Assembly (NCBI GenBank): GCA_001513495.1 | Contig: LFTN01000135.1 | Coordinates: forward strand, 16,454 to 55,486 | Length of the DNA stretch: 39,033 bases | Source: Clostridiales bacterium DTU087 | Lineage (GTDB): Bacteria > Bacillota > Limnochordia > DTU087 | Reading direction: 5' to 3' | Shown: piece by piece, positions 21,663 to 27,500 of the stretch | Layout of the letters: each line of letters starts with the position of its first letter | Position numbering within the stretch: the first letter of the stretch is position 1 | Notes under the pieces: model-generated | What the model was told of the DNA's origin: nothing | Databases searched by the model: none | What the model saw: the letters and a program-made list of their open reading frames with translations, nothing else | Made by a program: the position numbers and the translations under genes

Positions 21663-21887
21663 GGACCCCCGTATAGAGCTTCTGATTGTTCCTGTCGATT
21701 TCCCTACTGTCTTTCTCCCCATGCCATGACCCAGTTCTGCTTTGCCCCCTTGTGCCTGTTAACCTTTCCCGATCCACATCTGCCCTCAGCACATCTGTTT
21801 CCAACTCTCATAGAATGATTCAGGACTCAATGCCCTGTTTAGCCGATCCTAGCCCACGACGATGCAGGTCTTGCGGGAGGCCGGATA

Positions 21888-22799
21888 ATGATGTGCAGGA
21901 GAATTGTGATTAACGGACGGGTCTGGGAAGGCGACGCCTCCTGGAGATGGGTAGATGAAGTGCTGCTGCTTCCCCTTCAGGCCGCAGTAGAACGGCTGGG
22001 GGCAAGCCGGCGCTGGGCTATCTATCCCCAGCAGCTGGAGATAGAAAAGGATGGAAAGACCTTAACCCTAGAGATTGGTGCTGCAGCTGCCTGGCTGCAG
22101 GATGAGAGAATATCGCTGGATTGCCCCGTGTATTTGGATAATAACGCAGTGATGGTGCCGGTTTCCCTTCTTTGCCGCTTCTTTAAATTGTCCTGGGCAC
22201 TTGTGGAGGATGCGGGTGCCGCAGTCTTGAGCAGAGCTGAACCGGCCCTTATTGGAAAAACTGTACTGCTAGACCCCGGCCATGGAGGAGAGGATCCGGG
22301 GATTATCAGCGGCGATCTGATTGAAGCCGAGTTCACGTGGGATGTTGCTTGGCGCCTCGGTAGCCTTCTGAGGCTGAGCGGAGCTGCGGCAGCCTTTACG
22401 AGGCAGCGGGAGGAGACGGCTTCTCTCATCCAGAGGACGGCGGCAGCTGAGACGGCAAAGCCGGACCTCTTGATCAGCATTCACTGCAACAGCTTTATCC
22501 ATCCCGGCCGCAACGGCCTAGAAACCTACTGGTACAGCAGCTGGCCGGCCCGGCAGCTGGCCGAATACATTCATAGGGAGACTATTGAGGAGGTGGAGAT
22601 TCCCGACCGGGGAGTAAAGGAATCAGCCTTTTACGTCTTGCGTCATGCGCCGACAGTATCCGTGTTGGTGAAGTTGGGATTCGCCACAGGAGATAGGGAT
22701 GGACACATCCTAATGGACAGATGGCTGCGAGAAAGGGCGGCTTTGGGCATATTCAGGGGAATCCGGGCATTTATGGAAGCAGGAGCTATTCAAATGTAA
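21888..22799 (+). CDS. Amidase_3-fold protein lacking the catalytic glutamate
   Basis: A homologue of N-acetylmuramoyl-L-alanine amidases (Amidase_3), 303 residues. The N-terminal 125 residues resemble copper-amine-oxidase-type beta repeats (e.g. NAVMVPVSLLCRFFKLSWAL). The amidase domain retains the zinc ligands: H132 in DPGHGGEDPG, E146 in LIEAEFTWDVAWRL and H199 in LLISIHCNS. The last motif, normally VLVE-GF with the essential Glu, reads VLVKLGFATG with Lys at 262, so hydrolysis is doubtful. There is no signal peptide, so it should stay in the cytoplasm (mother cell or forespore). It starts at ATG 21888 after GGGAGG; an in-frame stop at 21840 with no start codon between excludes a longer, signal-bearing form. 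Confidence 0.85.
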   Translation: MMCRRIVINGRVWEGDASWRWVDEVLLLPLQAAVERLGASRRWAIYPQQLEIEKDGKTLTLEIGAAAAWLQDERISLDCPVYLDNNAVMVPVSLLCRFFKLSWALVEDAGAAVLSRAEPALIGKTVLLDPGHGGEDPGIISGDLIEAEFTWDVAWRLGSLLRLSGAAAAFTRQREETASLIQRTAAAETAKPDLLISIHCNSFIHPGRNGLETYWYSSWPARQLAEYIHRETIEEVEIPDRGVKESAFYVLRHAPTVSVLVKLGFATGDRDGHILMDRWLRERAALGIFRGIRAFMEAGAIQM

Positions 22800-22830
22800 A
22801 AATCTTGTTGCAAAGGGCCGATGACACTCC

Positions 22831-22860
22831 TTGACAGGGCAAGGAGGGCGCTGATATAAT
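22831..22860 (+). promoter_or_regulatory. veg promoter P1 (SigA consensus)
   Basis: TTGACA at 22831-22836 and TATAAT at 22855-22860 are both perfect SigA hexamers, spaced 18 bases, with an extended -10 (TGATATAAT). The -35 lies in a perfect seven-base inverted repeat, CTCCTTG (22827-22833) and CAAGGAG (22840-22846), which could be an operator. Confidence 0.85.
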
Positions 22861-22870
22861 GATTGTTTAT

Positions 22871-22899
22871 TTGACTGGAAAACCGGGATGTGGTATAAT
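22871..22899 (+). promoter_or_regulatory. veg promoter P2 (SigA consensus)
   Basis: TTGACT at 22871-22876 and TATAAT at 22894-22899 are spaced 17 bases, with an extended -10 (TGGTATAAT). It lies about 40 bases downstream of P1, giving tandem promoters. The predicted start is near 22906, leaving a leader of about 20 bases before veg. Confidence 0.85.
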
Positions 22900-22925
22900 T
22901 GCACTGACGAGAAAGAGGGAAGGTG

Positions 22926-23195
22926 ATGCTCGTGCCAGCACAGAACGCCAGAAGTCTGGATGCCATTAAGAAAAGTCTGGAAGCCAATGTCGGCAAGAAG
23001 GTTAGACTGCGGGCGAATCGGGGACGTCGCAAAGTTATAGAGGCAGAGGGAGTGCTGGAGCAAACCTACCCCAAGCTTTTTGTGGTGAAGCTGGACAAAC
23101 CCAGTGCAATCAAACGCCTTTCATACACTTATGCTGACGTACTGACTGATACCGTACAGGTAACCATTGGCGACAAGCAGGTTGGCTCAGTTTAG
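22926..23195 (+). CDS. veg: Veg protein
   Basis: Small conserved Firmicutes protein of the Veg family, about 89 residues, with an SH3-like barrel. In B. subtilis it influences biofilm gene expression and spore outgrowth. Recognisable segments are DAIKKSLEANVGKKVRLRAN, GRRKVIEAEGVLEQTYPKLF and SYTYADVLTDTVQV. The start is uncertain: ATG 22926 lies six bases after GAGGG, while GTG 22932 lies six bases after AAGGTG and gives a closer match to family length. It is driven by two near-perfect SigA promoters and ended by a strong terminator, so it is a highly expressed single-gene unit, as in B. subtilis. Confidence 0.93.
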   Translation: MLVPAQNARSLDAIKKSLEANVGKKVRLRANRGRRKVIEAEGVLEQTYPKLFVVKLDKPSAIKRLSYTYADVLTDTVQVTIGDKQVGSV

Positions 23196-23228
23196 CAGCC
23201 GGTCGGCCTAGATACTATCGTTGATACG

Positions 23229-23269
23229 AACCCCAGGTGGGTCCTTTATGAGGATTCACCTGGGGTTTT
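23229..23269 (+). terminator. Rho-independent terminator of veg
   Basis: AACCCCAGGTG (23229-23239) pairs perfectly over 11 bases with CACCTGGGGTT (23257-23267), followed by TTTT to 23269 and then GTTT. It lies 33 bases after the veg stop. Confidence 0.92.
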
Positions 23270-23343
23270 GTTTATCTTTGTTTGACTTCTAATTCGCCGC
23301 CGCGGCCGCATAAGAATTAAGGGACTAAAGGAGGCAGCGGTCG

Positions 23344-24549
23344 ATGGGCCACCGGATTTGGCAGCCGGGGAAGCGGACAGTCTTGCGTTTGGGAAACAAA
23401 GGCCTGGCGGTCACTTGGCTGCAGGAACGGCTGAAATCCCTGGCATATGATGTGGAAGTCGATGGAATCTATGGATACCTCACCGAGGATTGTGTCTGCT
23501 CCCTGCAGCGGGAGTACGGCCTGAGAGTGGATGGCATAGCCGGCCCCCGAGTTCTTGAACTGCTCCAGGATAAGGATATTCAAGAAAACGCACCCAGCTG
23601 TCAGCTATGGGGTGCAGTACAGGGCGGGCAGTTCTGGCAGCAGCTTCAGCGCAAGCCCTATGAGGCTGTAGGCCAGAGGTTAACCGGCATGGTGCTGTAC
23701 TGTTTTGAGGTTGGGGAAGACGGCGATGTTATCGGAGAACTGCCGCAGGCGGCTCTCTCTAACCAGCAGCTAGCCAACGTCAAGCTAATACCTGTCCTTA
23801 GCAACTATGACTGCGGCCGGGGCCTTTATAATGAGCGTGCATTGGAGGCACTGCTGAAACGGCGAGATATGCTGCGCCGGTTCCAGGAACTAGTCAGGAG
23901 TCTATTGGCCAATGGGAGATTAGGTGGTATCGGGCTGGACCTGCAGGGGGTGGGAATGGGATATGCGCGGCGCTTTGCAGCTCTAGCTGCTAGGGTACGG
24001 AAACTGGCCGATGGCTGCGATAAGCGATTGTACATGGTTCTAGTACGGGCAGCCGTCAAGGGGGGCTTTCCCCGGGGCGTGGAAAGCTGGGTCTGGACGC
24101 TGCCGGACCGGATAATTCTCCAAGCTCCCCGGGAGCAGGCAGCTAGAGAGCCAGGCCCCAGGATGGGCTATCAGTGGCTGCAGGCAGGGCTTAAAGGTGT
24201 GTCTCGGCATTTGCCCGCCTGGAGGCTCTTAGTTGCCCTGCCGGGAAACGGTATAGCTTGGTATATCGGGAAGGATCAGGGATATCAATACCTTTCCTAT
24301 GATGAAGCCCGCAAACTCGCTTATCTGAAGCAAGCGGCTATCCGCTGGGACAACTTGGAGAAGGTCTCCTACTATGATTTTGCCGATGAGAAGGGACGCT
24401 GCCGTGTATGGTTCGACAACAAAGACAGCCTGAGGTGGAAACTTGATTGGCTGAAAGGTCAGCATGTGTCAGGCATCGTCATCACGCCGCTGGGCTGTGA
24501 GGACACCCGAATATGGGAAGAGCTGGGCAGGCAGCATTTACCAATCTAG
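23344..24549 (+). CDS. Degenerate GH18-like protein with peptidoglycan-binding domain
   Basis: A 401-residue protein. Residues about 13-75 form a PG_binding_1 domain (LRLGNKGLAVTWLQERLKS, VDGIYGYLTED, YGLRVDGIAGPRVLELL). The rest matches the GH18-type domain of spore enzymes such as YaaH/SleL, including the C-terminal pattern CRVWFDNKDSLRWKLDWLK. The GH18 active-site motif, normally DGxDxDxE, reads GGIGLDLQ: the catalytic Glu is Gln at 201 and an upstream Asp is Gly. The usual active-site Trp near the C-terminus (as in YWxLG) is also absent, the segment reading GIVITPLG. Hydrolase activity is therefore unlikely; wall or cortex binding is the simpler reading. There is no signal peptide. It starts at ATG 23344 after AAAGGAGG. 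A CATA element at 23309 could be part of a sporulation promoter, but the match is weak. Confidence 0.85.
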   Translation: MGHRIWQPGKRTVLRLGNKGLAVTWLQERLKSLAYDVEVDGIYGYLTEDCVCSLQREYGLRVDGIAGPRVLELLQDKDIQENAPSCQLWGAVQGGQFWQQLQRKPYEAVGQRLTGMVLYCFEVGEDGDVIGELPQAALSNQQLANVKLIPVLSNYDCGRGLYNERALEALLKRRDMLRRFQELVRSLLANGRLGGIGLDLQGVGMGYARRFAALAARVRKLADGCDKRLYMVLVRAAVKGGFPRGVESWVWTLPDRIILQAPREQAAREPGPRMGYQWLQAGLKGVSRHLPAWRLLVALPGNGIAWYIGKDQGYQYLSYDEARKLAYLKQAAIRWDNLEKVSYYDFADEKGRCRVWFDNKDSLRWKLDWLKGQHVSGIVITPLGCEDTRIWEELGRQHLPI

Positions 24550-24615: not shown

Positions 24616-26247
24616 ATGGCGTTGAGAGTGAAGGACGATATTATCCAATTGGAGACAGTAATCGGCACGAACTCTACCCAGACTGTAGCCGACGGCACAG
24701 CGGTCATTCCCGGCAGCATGCTGCCGGCGGATCGGATTGTGAAAGTAACTGCCGTTCCCAGCATAAGGGAACACTGGGTGGAAGAAGATAGAGTAAATGT
24801 GGATGGGGTTATGACGGTAACGATCATCTATGCCGGGCAGACAGACACAGGGCAGACTTACTATGGAAGCACGCAAATTGCTGATGCGATTCCTTTCAGC
24901 CATTTTGTGGACCTGCCCGGGGCAATGCCTGAGATGTGGTCTCAATGCAGCGCGGCAGTGCTGGATCTCCAATCTTCTGTCAGAAGCGACGGCCGCACTG
25001 TAGATCTTGACATAGTCTTGGAGTTGACGGCAGCAGCTGTGTCAACTCAAGAGATCGTAGTGGTTACCGATGCTGCAGCAGACCCTGCTGTTCGATTAAA
25101 GGCAGCCAAAGATGTCCTTCATATCGAGGATGTGATCGGCAGGGGAACTGCTAGAGCACAGATCCGGGAAATTATTCCCATACCTGGTGGAGGCGGGCCT
25201 GACCTCAGGCTGCTGGAGGTACAGGGCAAATTCCGGCCGGTGGAAAACCGTGTGGATATAGACCGGGCGGTGATAGTGGGAACGATGAGCTATAGAGCCA
25301 TCTGTGCAGGATATAGCGCCGATACAGGGGAGGAGCAGATTGTCATACACCGCTGGGATGACATATCCGCTGTGGAGCTCAGTGCTCAGATTTACGGCAG
25401 TTATGCAGGCATGACCGCCCATCCCCAGATAGCTGCTCCCCTGATCTCCGGCCGCTTGGCCAATGACGGGCAAAGCCTGGCCATCGAAGGCGAGCTGACT
25501 GCGGAGATAAAGGTCGTGCAGCCCCTAAATATCTCGGTGGTCACTGATCTATCCTCAGACAGCGATGTAGAAATTGCGGTCAGGCAGGAAACGATTAAAA
25601 TTGAGCAGGTCGGAGAGGCCGCAGCCAAAGATATTTACGTGGACGGCACTGTTCAGCTGCCAGCATCCCATCCTCCTCTGGAGCGGCTGCTGGATGTGGA
25701 AGCCCGGGCTGCCGTTACCGGAGCCTCTATAGTGGGCGGACGCGCGGTGGTGTCGGGGTATATCGACCTATCAGCTTTATACGCTGCCAGGACCGATGAT
25801 TTCAGCCAGCCTGTCTATCACGCCGCCTGGGGCAATGCAGAAACCTTTGAGGCCAGCATTAATGTTCCAGCGGCAGCGGCTCTGGCCGAAGGTGAGGTTG
25901 AGGCAGATATCGTCATCCATGATGTGCGGGCTGAGCCTATCAGCAGGGATACCATCAGCTTCCATGTGGTGGGTTCTGTGTCTTGCCGTCTGAAGGAGGC
26001 CGCATCCAAGGAAGTAGTGGCTGAAGCTGTTGAGCTGCGGCGCTTTAAAGGCAGGCCGCCCACTTACACTTGCGTGACCTTACAACCGGAAGACACTCTC
26101 TGGAAGCTGGCCGCTAAGTACCGCACCACTGTGGAGAACTTGTTGGAAGTCAATCCTGACCTCGCGGAAACTGCCATGACCATCGGCGGGCTGCCGGTGG
26201 GCAGCAAAGTGTTGATTACACATTCTGCATCCTCCGAATTGGAATAG
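24616..26247 (+). CDS. SipL/SpoVID-like spore coat morphogenetic protein (SPOCS repeats + LysM)
   Basis: A 543-residue cytosolic protein with three DUF3794/SPOCS-type beta domains (about residues 25-115, 185-275 and 335-430) and a C-terminal LysM domain (about 484-540, YTCVTLQPEDTLWKLAAKYR, ENLLEVNPDL). This is the architecture of SipL of Clostridioides difficile, which binds SpoIVA through LysM and anchors the coat to the forespore; B. subtilis SpoVID plays the same role. There is no signal peptide, as expected for a mother-cell protein. It starts at ATG 24616 after GGGGGG-rich sequence. It follows the degenerate GH18-like gene by 66 bases, so the two are probably co-expressed in the mother cell. 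Confidence 0.85.
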   Translation: MALRVKDDIIQLETVIGTNSTQTVADGTAVIPGSMLPADRIVKVTAVPSIREHWVEEDRVNVDGVMTVTIIYAGQTDTGQTYYGSTQIADAIPFSHFVDLPGAMPEMWSQCSAAVLDLQSSVRSDGRTVDLDIVLELTAAAVSTQEIVVVTDAAADPAVRLKAAKDVLHIEDVIGRGTARAQIREIIPIPGGGGPDLRLLEVQGKFRPVENRVDIDRAVIVGTMSYRAICAGYSADTGEEQIVIHRWDDISAVELSAQIYGSYAGMTAHPQIAAPLISGRLANDGQSLAIEGELTAEIKVVQPLNISVVTDLSSDSDVEIAVRQETIKIEQVGEAAAKDIYVDGTVQLPASHPPLERLLDVEARAAVTGASIVGGRAVVSGYIDLSALYAARTDDFSQPVYHAAWGNAETFEASINVPAAAALAEGEVEADIVIHDVRAEPISRDTISFHVVGSVSCRLKEAASKEVVAEAVELRRFKGRPPTYTCVTLQPEDTLWKLAAKYRTTVENLLEVNPDLAETAMTIGGLPVGSKVLITHSASSELE

Positions 26248-26420: not shown

Positions 26421-26450
26421 GAATACCTTTATTTTTGAAAAGCATAATCT
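26421..26450 (+). promoter_or_regulatory. SigE-like sporulation promoter before the Myb-repeat gene
   Basis: GAATACCT at 26421-26428 and CATAATCT at 26443-26450, exactly 14 bases apart, resemble the mother-cell SigE pattern (GHATANTT, 14 bases, CATACAHT) at 7 of 8 and 6 of 8 positions. The predicted transcription start is near 26457, about 50 bases before the gene. The rest of 26248-26507 is AT-rich and otherwise unassigned. Confidence 0.5.
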
Positions 26451-26507
26451 GTATCATCCATACCCATACTATAGATTACCAATCAAGCAAAGAAGGAGGG
26501 GATTAGG

Positions 26508-27500
26508 ATGGGTTCCCAGTTGAGGGAAGCAGCTGTTGGATCAGAGAACGCTAACCGTATGTATACAGAAGAGGAAGATCAAAAAATCTTAGCTAAGTGG
26601 TGGAACAAAAAACTCAGACCAGAACTGGCGAAGGAACTAGGCAGAAGCGAAGCCGCCCTTGCCCAGCGGTTCTATGCCATTTTGAAAAAGAAGGGTATAG
26701 AGCCCAAGTCATATAGGGCTAAGATGAAGGAGGAAGCAGGCAAACGGCACTTGCAGCCCACCGCAGCCGGCCGGAGCTGGACTAGGGATGAAGATATCAT
26801 CCTGTGGCGAGGGGCAAGAGCCGGTGACAGCTTCTCTGATATCGCCGGCCGGCTTGCCGGCCGCACAGCCGAGGAGTGCCGGGAGCGCTATGAAGCCCTG
26901 CTTCAGGCAAACGCCAGTGTAGATGTCCCTGTGCAGCCTACGGACGCTCTTGGAGCTGCGGCTGATCAGAGGAGAGAAGTGGGGGGCTCTGCGGCTGATA
27001 TTGAACATACAGTCCAGGAATCCAGCGAAAACGGCCAGCCAGAGTATCCGAAGGATGGGCAAAGCGAAGACTCAGAGGATTTCTTGGATGTCCTCAGGCG
27101 ATTCCCACAGCAAGCTGAAGCGTTAACTCACCGCATGGATGGCATCGAGAATGATATGCAGTACATCAAAGGCAGCCTGCAGTTCAGCCTGGAGCACTTG
27201 GCCCAGGGGCTTCAGAATGTCGTCAATTATCTTGTCGGGCAGGAGCAGGATTTTACGGCCTTTGAGAAAATCCGCCAAGAGAATCAAGCTCTCCGCAGTC
27301 AGTTGACAGAGCTGCGGCAGCGGATGGAAAACGAAAAAAAGGAATTGAGAAAAGTCTACAACGAGCTGGAGTTCTGGCTGGGTGAATTCTTGGAAATGCG
27401 CAAGATCGAGAAGGTAGCCAATCTTGGAGAGTTGATTCCCAAACTCAAGTACTCCTATGACAAGTTTGGAGTGCTCCTGCAGATTGAAAAGGAAGCCTAG
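26508..27500 (+). CDS. Two-Myb-repeat protein with C-terminal coiled coil
   Basis: A 330-residue protein with two Myb/SANT-like helix-turn-helix units. The first (about 18-62) reads MYTEEEDQKILAKWWNKKL then AKELGRSEAALAQRFYAIL; the second (about 88-131) reads SWTRDEDIILWRGARAGDS then AGRLAGRTAEECRERYEALL. An acidic, low-complexity linker follows (about 135-200), then helical and coiled-coil segments (about 210-315). Myb-like repeats occur in the prespore regulator RsfA of Bacillus, but a two-repeat form with a long coiled coil differs from it. The likely role is DNA binding with oligomerisation. A SigE-like promoter, AAGGAGGGG before the ATG and a terminator after the stop make it a single-gene unit. 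Confidence 0.8.
   Translation: MGSQLREAAVGSENANRMYTEEEDQKILAKWWNKKLRPELAKELGRSEAALAQRFYAILKKKGIEPKSYRAKMKEEAGKRHLQPTAAGRSWTRDEDIILWRGARAGDSFSDIAGRLAGRTAEECRERYEALLQANASVDVPVQPTDALGAAADQRREVGGSAADIEHTVQESSENGQPEYPKDGQSEDSEDFLDVLRRFPQQAEALTHRMDGIENDMQYIKGSLQFSLEHLAQGLQNVVNYLVGQEQDFTAFEKIRQENQALRSQLTELRQRMENEKKELRKVYNELEFWLGEFLEMRKIEKVANLGELIPKLKYSYDKFGVLLQIEKEA

Follow-up and report, generated by a model that had tools for sequence, protein, structure and literature searches.

Conserved, probably inactive relatives of cell-wall hydrolases on either side of veg in Clostridiales bacterium DTU087, with a putative role at the spore envelope

Why should a genome keep two closely spaced genes for proteins that resemble cell-wall hydrolases and appear unable to cut? 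The question is raised by a window (the whole stretch of DNA that was analysed, 39,033 nucleotides of contig LFTN01000135.1) from Clostridiales bacterium DTU087 (class Limnochordia), which is part of an assembly of 2.2 Mb in 233 contigs. An earlier note on this DNA had described an amidase-type and a GH18-like gene separated by veg only, and the open reading frames were found as described (Table 1). Related genomes, loci and families are designated below by our G, L and f numbers.

Table 1. Features of the locus, in window positions, with the evidence for each
Feature	Position	Strand	Evidence or remarks
Possible sigma-E/K-type amidase promoter	21789..21816	+	gcacatc-13-CATAGAAT
Pseudo-amidase gene	21888..22799	+	303 aa; PF07833 N-domain and Amidase_3; without signal peptide
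Cu_amine_oxidN1 (PF07833) N-domain, residues 8-99	21909..22184	+	Pfam E 3.5e-12; Foldseek match
Amidase_3 domain, residues 126-293	22263..22766	+	Pfam E 7e-37; AmiC2 (5emi) and CwlV (1jwq) folds
Zinc ligand His132	22281..22283	+	Retained; Pro in G007 and G011
Zinc ligand Glu146	22323..22325	+	Retained
Zinc ligand His199	22482..22484	+	Retained
Lys262 at catalytic Glu column	22671..22673	+	Aligned to 5emi, 1jwq and 4rn7
Two sigma-A promoters of veg	22831..22899	+	TTGACA-18-TATAAT, TTGACT-17-TATAAT; conserved in genus
veg	22923..23195	+	PF06257, E 8.5e-29
Intrinsic terminator after veg	23228..23268	+	19-pair stem, T-rich tail; conserved in genus
GH18-like gene	23344..24549	+	401 aa; PG_binding_1 and SleL-like GH18 pseudoenzyme; without signal peptide
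PG_binding_1 (PGB) domain, residues 20-74	23401..23565	+	Pfam E 9e-14; best-conserved part of the protein
Degenerate GH18 barrel, approximately residues 87-396	23602..24531	+	AF2 pLDDT 88.8; top PDB match SleL (4s3k)
GGIGLDLQ, degenerate DGxDxDxE motif, Gln201 at catalytic Glu	23923..23946	+	Structure and orthologue alignment
Thr381 at C-terminal active-site Trp	24484..24486	+	Aligned to Trp of SleL YWKLG
SPOCS and LysM (SipL-like) gene	24616..26247	+	PF12673, E 5e-19; LysM; likely functional partner

The amidase-type protein belongs to Amidase_3 (PF01520), its match covering positions 1-173 of the 174 of the profile, and its AF2 model (pLDDT 90) matched the structures of AmiC2, CwlV and CwlD. 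With 79.1 bits against a cut-off of 221.55 bits it falls outside the CwlD family (TIGR02883). The Foldseek match of its N-terminal domain was the N-domain of the E. coli copper amine oxidase. The three zinc ligands expected of an active Amidase_3 are in place, as the earlier note had stated. In the residue alignments Lys262 falls on the Glu of AmiC2 (VETGY), CwlV (LEVGY) and the C. difficile amidase 4rn7 (IECGF), and in none of the three alignments does another Glu of the protein reach this column. The earlier claim that Lys262 replaces the essential Glu is thus borne out by the structure alignments, by the three amidase paralogues of the DTU087 genome, all of which have Glu at the catalytic column, and by control amidases from other organisms, which were chosen by the generic zinc motif rather than by the catalytic column and have Glu in 84 of 84 alignable sequences. 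With Lys in this place the protein would be unable to activate water, a step that is well supported.

The substitution is shared by 14 genomes: all 11 members of the family (f1), two f8 genomes and G011, which represents the sister family. Families f3 and f6 have Glu at column 262; in the class as a whole, seven amidase orthologues retain it. Its recurrence in independent assemblies rules out a sequencing error or an artefact peculiar to the DTU087 assembly. Of the 11 f1 amidases, 10 have all three zinc ligands, among them the DTU087 protein. In the pseudo-amidases of G011 (L074, 6092-6961) and G007 (L070, 6378-7205) the first zinc His has become Pro, and metal binding is probably being lost there too. 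Outside the class, the catalytic Glu is replaced by Ser and the Glu ligand by Gly in the amidase of G263, and in that of G176 Asp stands in place of the first His. In the amidase tree f8 groups with the Glu-bearing f6 (support 95/82) and away from f1, and the residue requires three changes; the catalytic Glu was therefore probably lost more than once.

The GH18-like protein consists of an N-terminal PGB domain and a barrel whose Pfam GH18 match (residues 287-380) lies below the gathering score (24.3 vs 29.6). Profile matches to YdhD (7.8e-31) and SleL (8.3e-30) and a Foldseek match to SleL (4.8e-21) nevertheless place it in the GH18 fold, with SleL of B. megaterium and B. cereus and YdhD as the nearest folds. 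Gln201 aligns to the Glu of YdhD (TIDFE) and of SleL (HFDFE), with no substitute Glu at that column in either alignment. The earlier note was right about this residue and needs one correction, since the first aspartates of the motif are gone too (GGIGLDLQ vs DGxNxDxE). The C-terminal active-site Trp, which it had also reported missing, is indeed absent; Trp is kept in the GH18 paralogue L280 of the same genome, and the exported GH18 paralogue of this genome has an intact motif (SGINLDFE). With the Glu replaced by Gln and the supporting aspartates partly lost, the protein would be unable to protonate a glycosidic bond; this step, too, is well supported.

Across the class, a complete [D/N]xDxE motif was found in two of the 56 orthologous GH18 loci, both of family f12. 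Depending on the locus, the column of the catalytic Glu is occupied by Q, E, R, G, S, H, D, K, P, A, V or C; the motif alignment of f6 is unreliable, its barrel being too diverged. Of the 11 loci with Glu, nine have lost the preceding Asp residues, and the f7 orthologues keep Glu with the DxD gone. The two f12 loci (L257 and L279, in G026 and G042) are the only orthologous ones in the class with an intact DxDLE, which represents either a retained ancestral enzyme or a regain. To judge from their motifs, these f12 orthologues (DxDxE) and the seven Glu-keeping class amidases may be active. Most GH18 proteins of the class encoded outside the cluster keep the motif; the two that do not are second GH18 loci of f13 (L060 and L062, in G047 and G059; KGLIIHFD and KGLILHLA), a further independent decay.

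Outside the class, the motif was lost in five of five signal-less PGB-GH18 proteins encoded beside SPOCS genes (G342, G073, G158, G272, G296), whereas the sampled signal-bearing PGB-GH18 proteins keep DxE, preceded by Asp, Asn or Glu. In the GH18 tree a well-supported branch separates the sequences of the class from those outside it. Some of the dead outside proteins (L288, L292, L294, L295) are encoded among three to five SPOCS-domain proteins, in an expanded SPOCS cluster.

Within the genus the amidase gene has a dN/dS of 0.19 and the GH18-like gene one of 0.14, compared with 0.09-0.13 in the genes around them. Judged from these ratios, both genes are under purifying selection that is slightly relaxed. 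The values somewhat above those of the neighbours are what decaying pseudogenes or assembly errors would have in their favour; with open frames, substitutions shared between independent assemblies, dN/dS far below 1 and confident folds (pLDDT 90 and 89), pseudogene decay is ruled out and this explanation is left with a negligible probability. A second explanation, that both proteins are still hydrolases and rely on another acidic residue or on a modified mechanism, could draw on the intact zinc ligands of most f1 amidases and on the f7 GH18 proteins that keep Glu without DxD. It is contradicted by the lack of a substitute Glu at either aligned position, by the loss of a zinc ligand itself in the Lys-carrying G007 and G011 proteins, and by the variety of residues other than Glu at the GH18 column, as expected without catalytic constraint, and we consider it very unlikely. 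We conclude from the aligned residues that each of the two proteins is, with high probability, catalytically inactive.

Their conservation must then rest on something other than catalysis. The PGB domain was present in all 16 GH18-like orthologues scanned and has a mean identity within the family of 70%, vs 41-54% for the barrel. Selection thus keeps both folds, and the PGB domain best, which supports binding as the function that was probably retained. In G032 the GH18-like gene (L078, 6390-7142) appears to end after the PGB domain, by a frameshift or a true truncation, and the PGB part alone may be sufficient there.

The genomic context points to the spore envelope. The gene order rpf3D-ksgA-PF04308-amidase-veg-GH18-SPOCS/LysM-Myb is shared by 11 of 11 family members and by the sister family, with one of the family loci truncated where its contig stops. 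In the window the amidase, veg, GH18-like, SPOCS/LysM and Myb genes are co-directional, the last (26508-27500) encoding a Myb-like coiled-coil protein, which we take to resemble RsfA-type sporulation regulators. Across the class the GH18-like gene lies between veg and the SPOCS/LysM gene, almost everywhere immediately 5' of the latter, with the qualification that at some loci the contig stops short and that f6 has no veg in between. The adjacent SPOCS/LysM protein, together with a SpoIVA encoded in the genome (730 bits), indicates a SipL-like system.

A strict co-occurrence of the two proteins is to be rejected. The cluster-type amidase is present in 21 of 73 class genomes and missing from 52, while the GH18-like gene is widespread (56 loci), and the two proteins therefore need not act together. 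Nor do they form one operon: because sigma-A promoters and a terminator belonging to veg lie between the amidase gene and the GH18-like gene, co-transcription of the two is unlikely, and each is probably transcribed as a unit of its own. Candidate sporulation promoters were scored against the B. subtilis sigma-E consensus. The block upstream of the amidase gene is the most conserved part of an otherwise diverged intergenic region in five congeneric genomes, and in the window it is a weak candidate (3 mismatches, shuffle P 0.11). A near-perfect sigma-E-like promoter (gcataat-16-CATACTAT; P 0.01) precedes the Myb gene at 26442-26472 and is conserved in five congeners. Consensus scoring gave no support for such a promoter before the GH18-like or the SPOCS gene. 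Of the mother-cell module proposed in the earlier note, two dead, conserved and selected proteins in a spore-envelope neighbourhood remain; the strict two-protein unit does not.

As to location, a hydrophobic N-terminus of signal-peptide strength was absent by hydropathy from the 36 orthologues of the two proteins tested, in agreement with the earlier note; three paralogues do carry one. The veg-linked amidases whose active site is intact likewise have no signal peptide, so its absence does not track the loss of catalysis. The further claim that both proteins stay in the cytoplasm fits the missing signal peptide and is too simple: SafA, as presented in passages of PMC6436350, exemplifies a soluble mother-cell protein that can reach the cortex or coat. 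In a further reading the two would be cytosolic proteins of peptidoglycan recycling and not of the spore, with amidases that lack a signal peptide processing muropeptides or sensing them. Such a reading could explain the signal-less, intact-looking amidases outside the class, where, in G287, G210, G263, G096 and G176, the amidase gene has a PF04308 gene on one side and veg on the other. It is set against the lack of recycling genes nearby and the class-wide tie of the GH18 partner to SPOCS genes, and recycling by catalysis is impossible for the K262 forms; we regard it as improbable.

A role of the two proteins in sporulation is likely. The SipL-like neighbour, the SpoIVA gene and SleL as the closest fold suggest mother-cell spore-envelope assembly, and we favour, as somewhat more probable than not, the view that both are pseudoenzymes serving there as peptidoglycan-binding or docking scaffolds, a tether in a SafA/SipL-like role. 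The PGB-GH18 protein would work with the adjacent SipL-like protein, whose expected binding partner is SpoIVA at the outer forespore membrane; binding of SpoIVA by SipL is described in passages of PMC6436350. The PGB-GH18 protein would thereby link the base layer of the coat to germ-cell-wall or cortex peptidoglycan, much as in B. subtilis the LysM of SafA, a protein without a membrane span, binds SpoVID and later the cortex (same passages of PMC6436350). More tentatively, the pseudo-amidase could add a second element that binds stem peptides or muramyl residues or docks proteins. For the class, Limnochorda pilosa is called a Gram-negative spore-former in the title of its description, as cited in PMC11456536.

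The main rival to such a tether is that the dead amidase and the dead GH18 protein regulate active cousins (CwlD-type, SleL-type) or hide substrate sites. Precedent comes from CwlD, which is allosterically activated by its partner GerS (PDB 7rag; PMC8496864), and from LytH-ActH, another amidase activated by a partner, and active-looking paralogues of both proteins exist in the DTU087 genome. Those paralogues are encoded elsewhere in the genome, however, and the ones checked have export-type N-termini and so would act across the membrane from the signal-less pseudoenzymes; the PGB domain as the best-conserved part of the GH18-like protein also favours wall binding over regulation. We therefore hold regulation to be rather unlikely, and keep the tether as the preferred reading.

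Sporulation pseudoenzymes have been known singly (SpoIIQ in Bacilli, CspC), while in the present case a dead SleL-like protein is retained next to a SipL-like gene throughout a class, with a dead amidase in addition in some families. Specific candidates for coat-cortex tethers outside Bacillus can thus be named, and automated labels such as 'amidase' and 'glycosyl hydrolase' are misleading at these loci. The repeated catalytic losses form a natural set for studying how hydrolases turn into binding proteins. A literature search of partial coverage found no Amidase_3 pseudoenzyme family, no sporulation amidase pseudoenzyme and no SipL-linked dead SleL. It is a speculative and on balance doubtful extension that in the spore morphogenesis of deep-branching Bacillota hydrolase folds serve to read the wall without cutting it, with signal-less, SipL-linked PGB-GH18 proteins dead in at least two separate lineages and, in some families, an Amidase_3 pseudoenzyme with a recurrent Glu-to-Lys change, the two together being a coat-to-cortex tether that replaces SafA.

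Among known systems, AmiC2 (5emi), CwlV (1jwq) and CwlD (7rag) share the fold and the three zinc ligands with the pseudo-amidase, which differs by its Lys for the catalytic Glu, the missing signal peptide, the PF07833 N-domain and the link to veg. The GH18-like protein shares its barrel with SleL/YaaH (4s3k, 4s3j) and YdhD (3cz8), a family of spore cortex-lytic enzymes that carry a wall-binding module at the N-terminus, in SleL/YaaH a tandem LysM. In its place the GH18-like protein has PG_binding_1 (sometimes with LysM); it has lost the catalytic Glu, some Asp and the C-terminal Trp, and is encoded beside a SipL-like SPOCS gene. The structural matches of its model include the chi-lectins YKL-40 and Ym1, glycan-binding GH18 folds in which the catalytic Glu is gone; these are secreted animal lectins with no spore link. 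CspC of C. difficile is a pseudoprotease that serves the spore although it is catalytically dead (passages of PMC6636752). It has a subtilisin fold and acts in germination signalling. SpoIIQ of Bacilli has a degenerate LytM domain, likewise a hydrolase fold co-opted in sporulation, with a broken zinc motif (PMC6934232), but of another fold and in a membrane-anchored forespore protein. SafA, as portrayed in parts of PMC6436350, is a soluble mother-cell protein whose wall-binding domain links coat to cortex; it has LysM only and no hydrolase fold, and the likeness is one of role.
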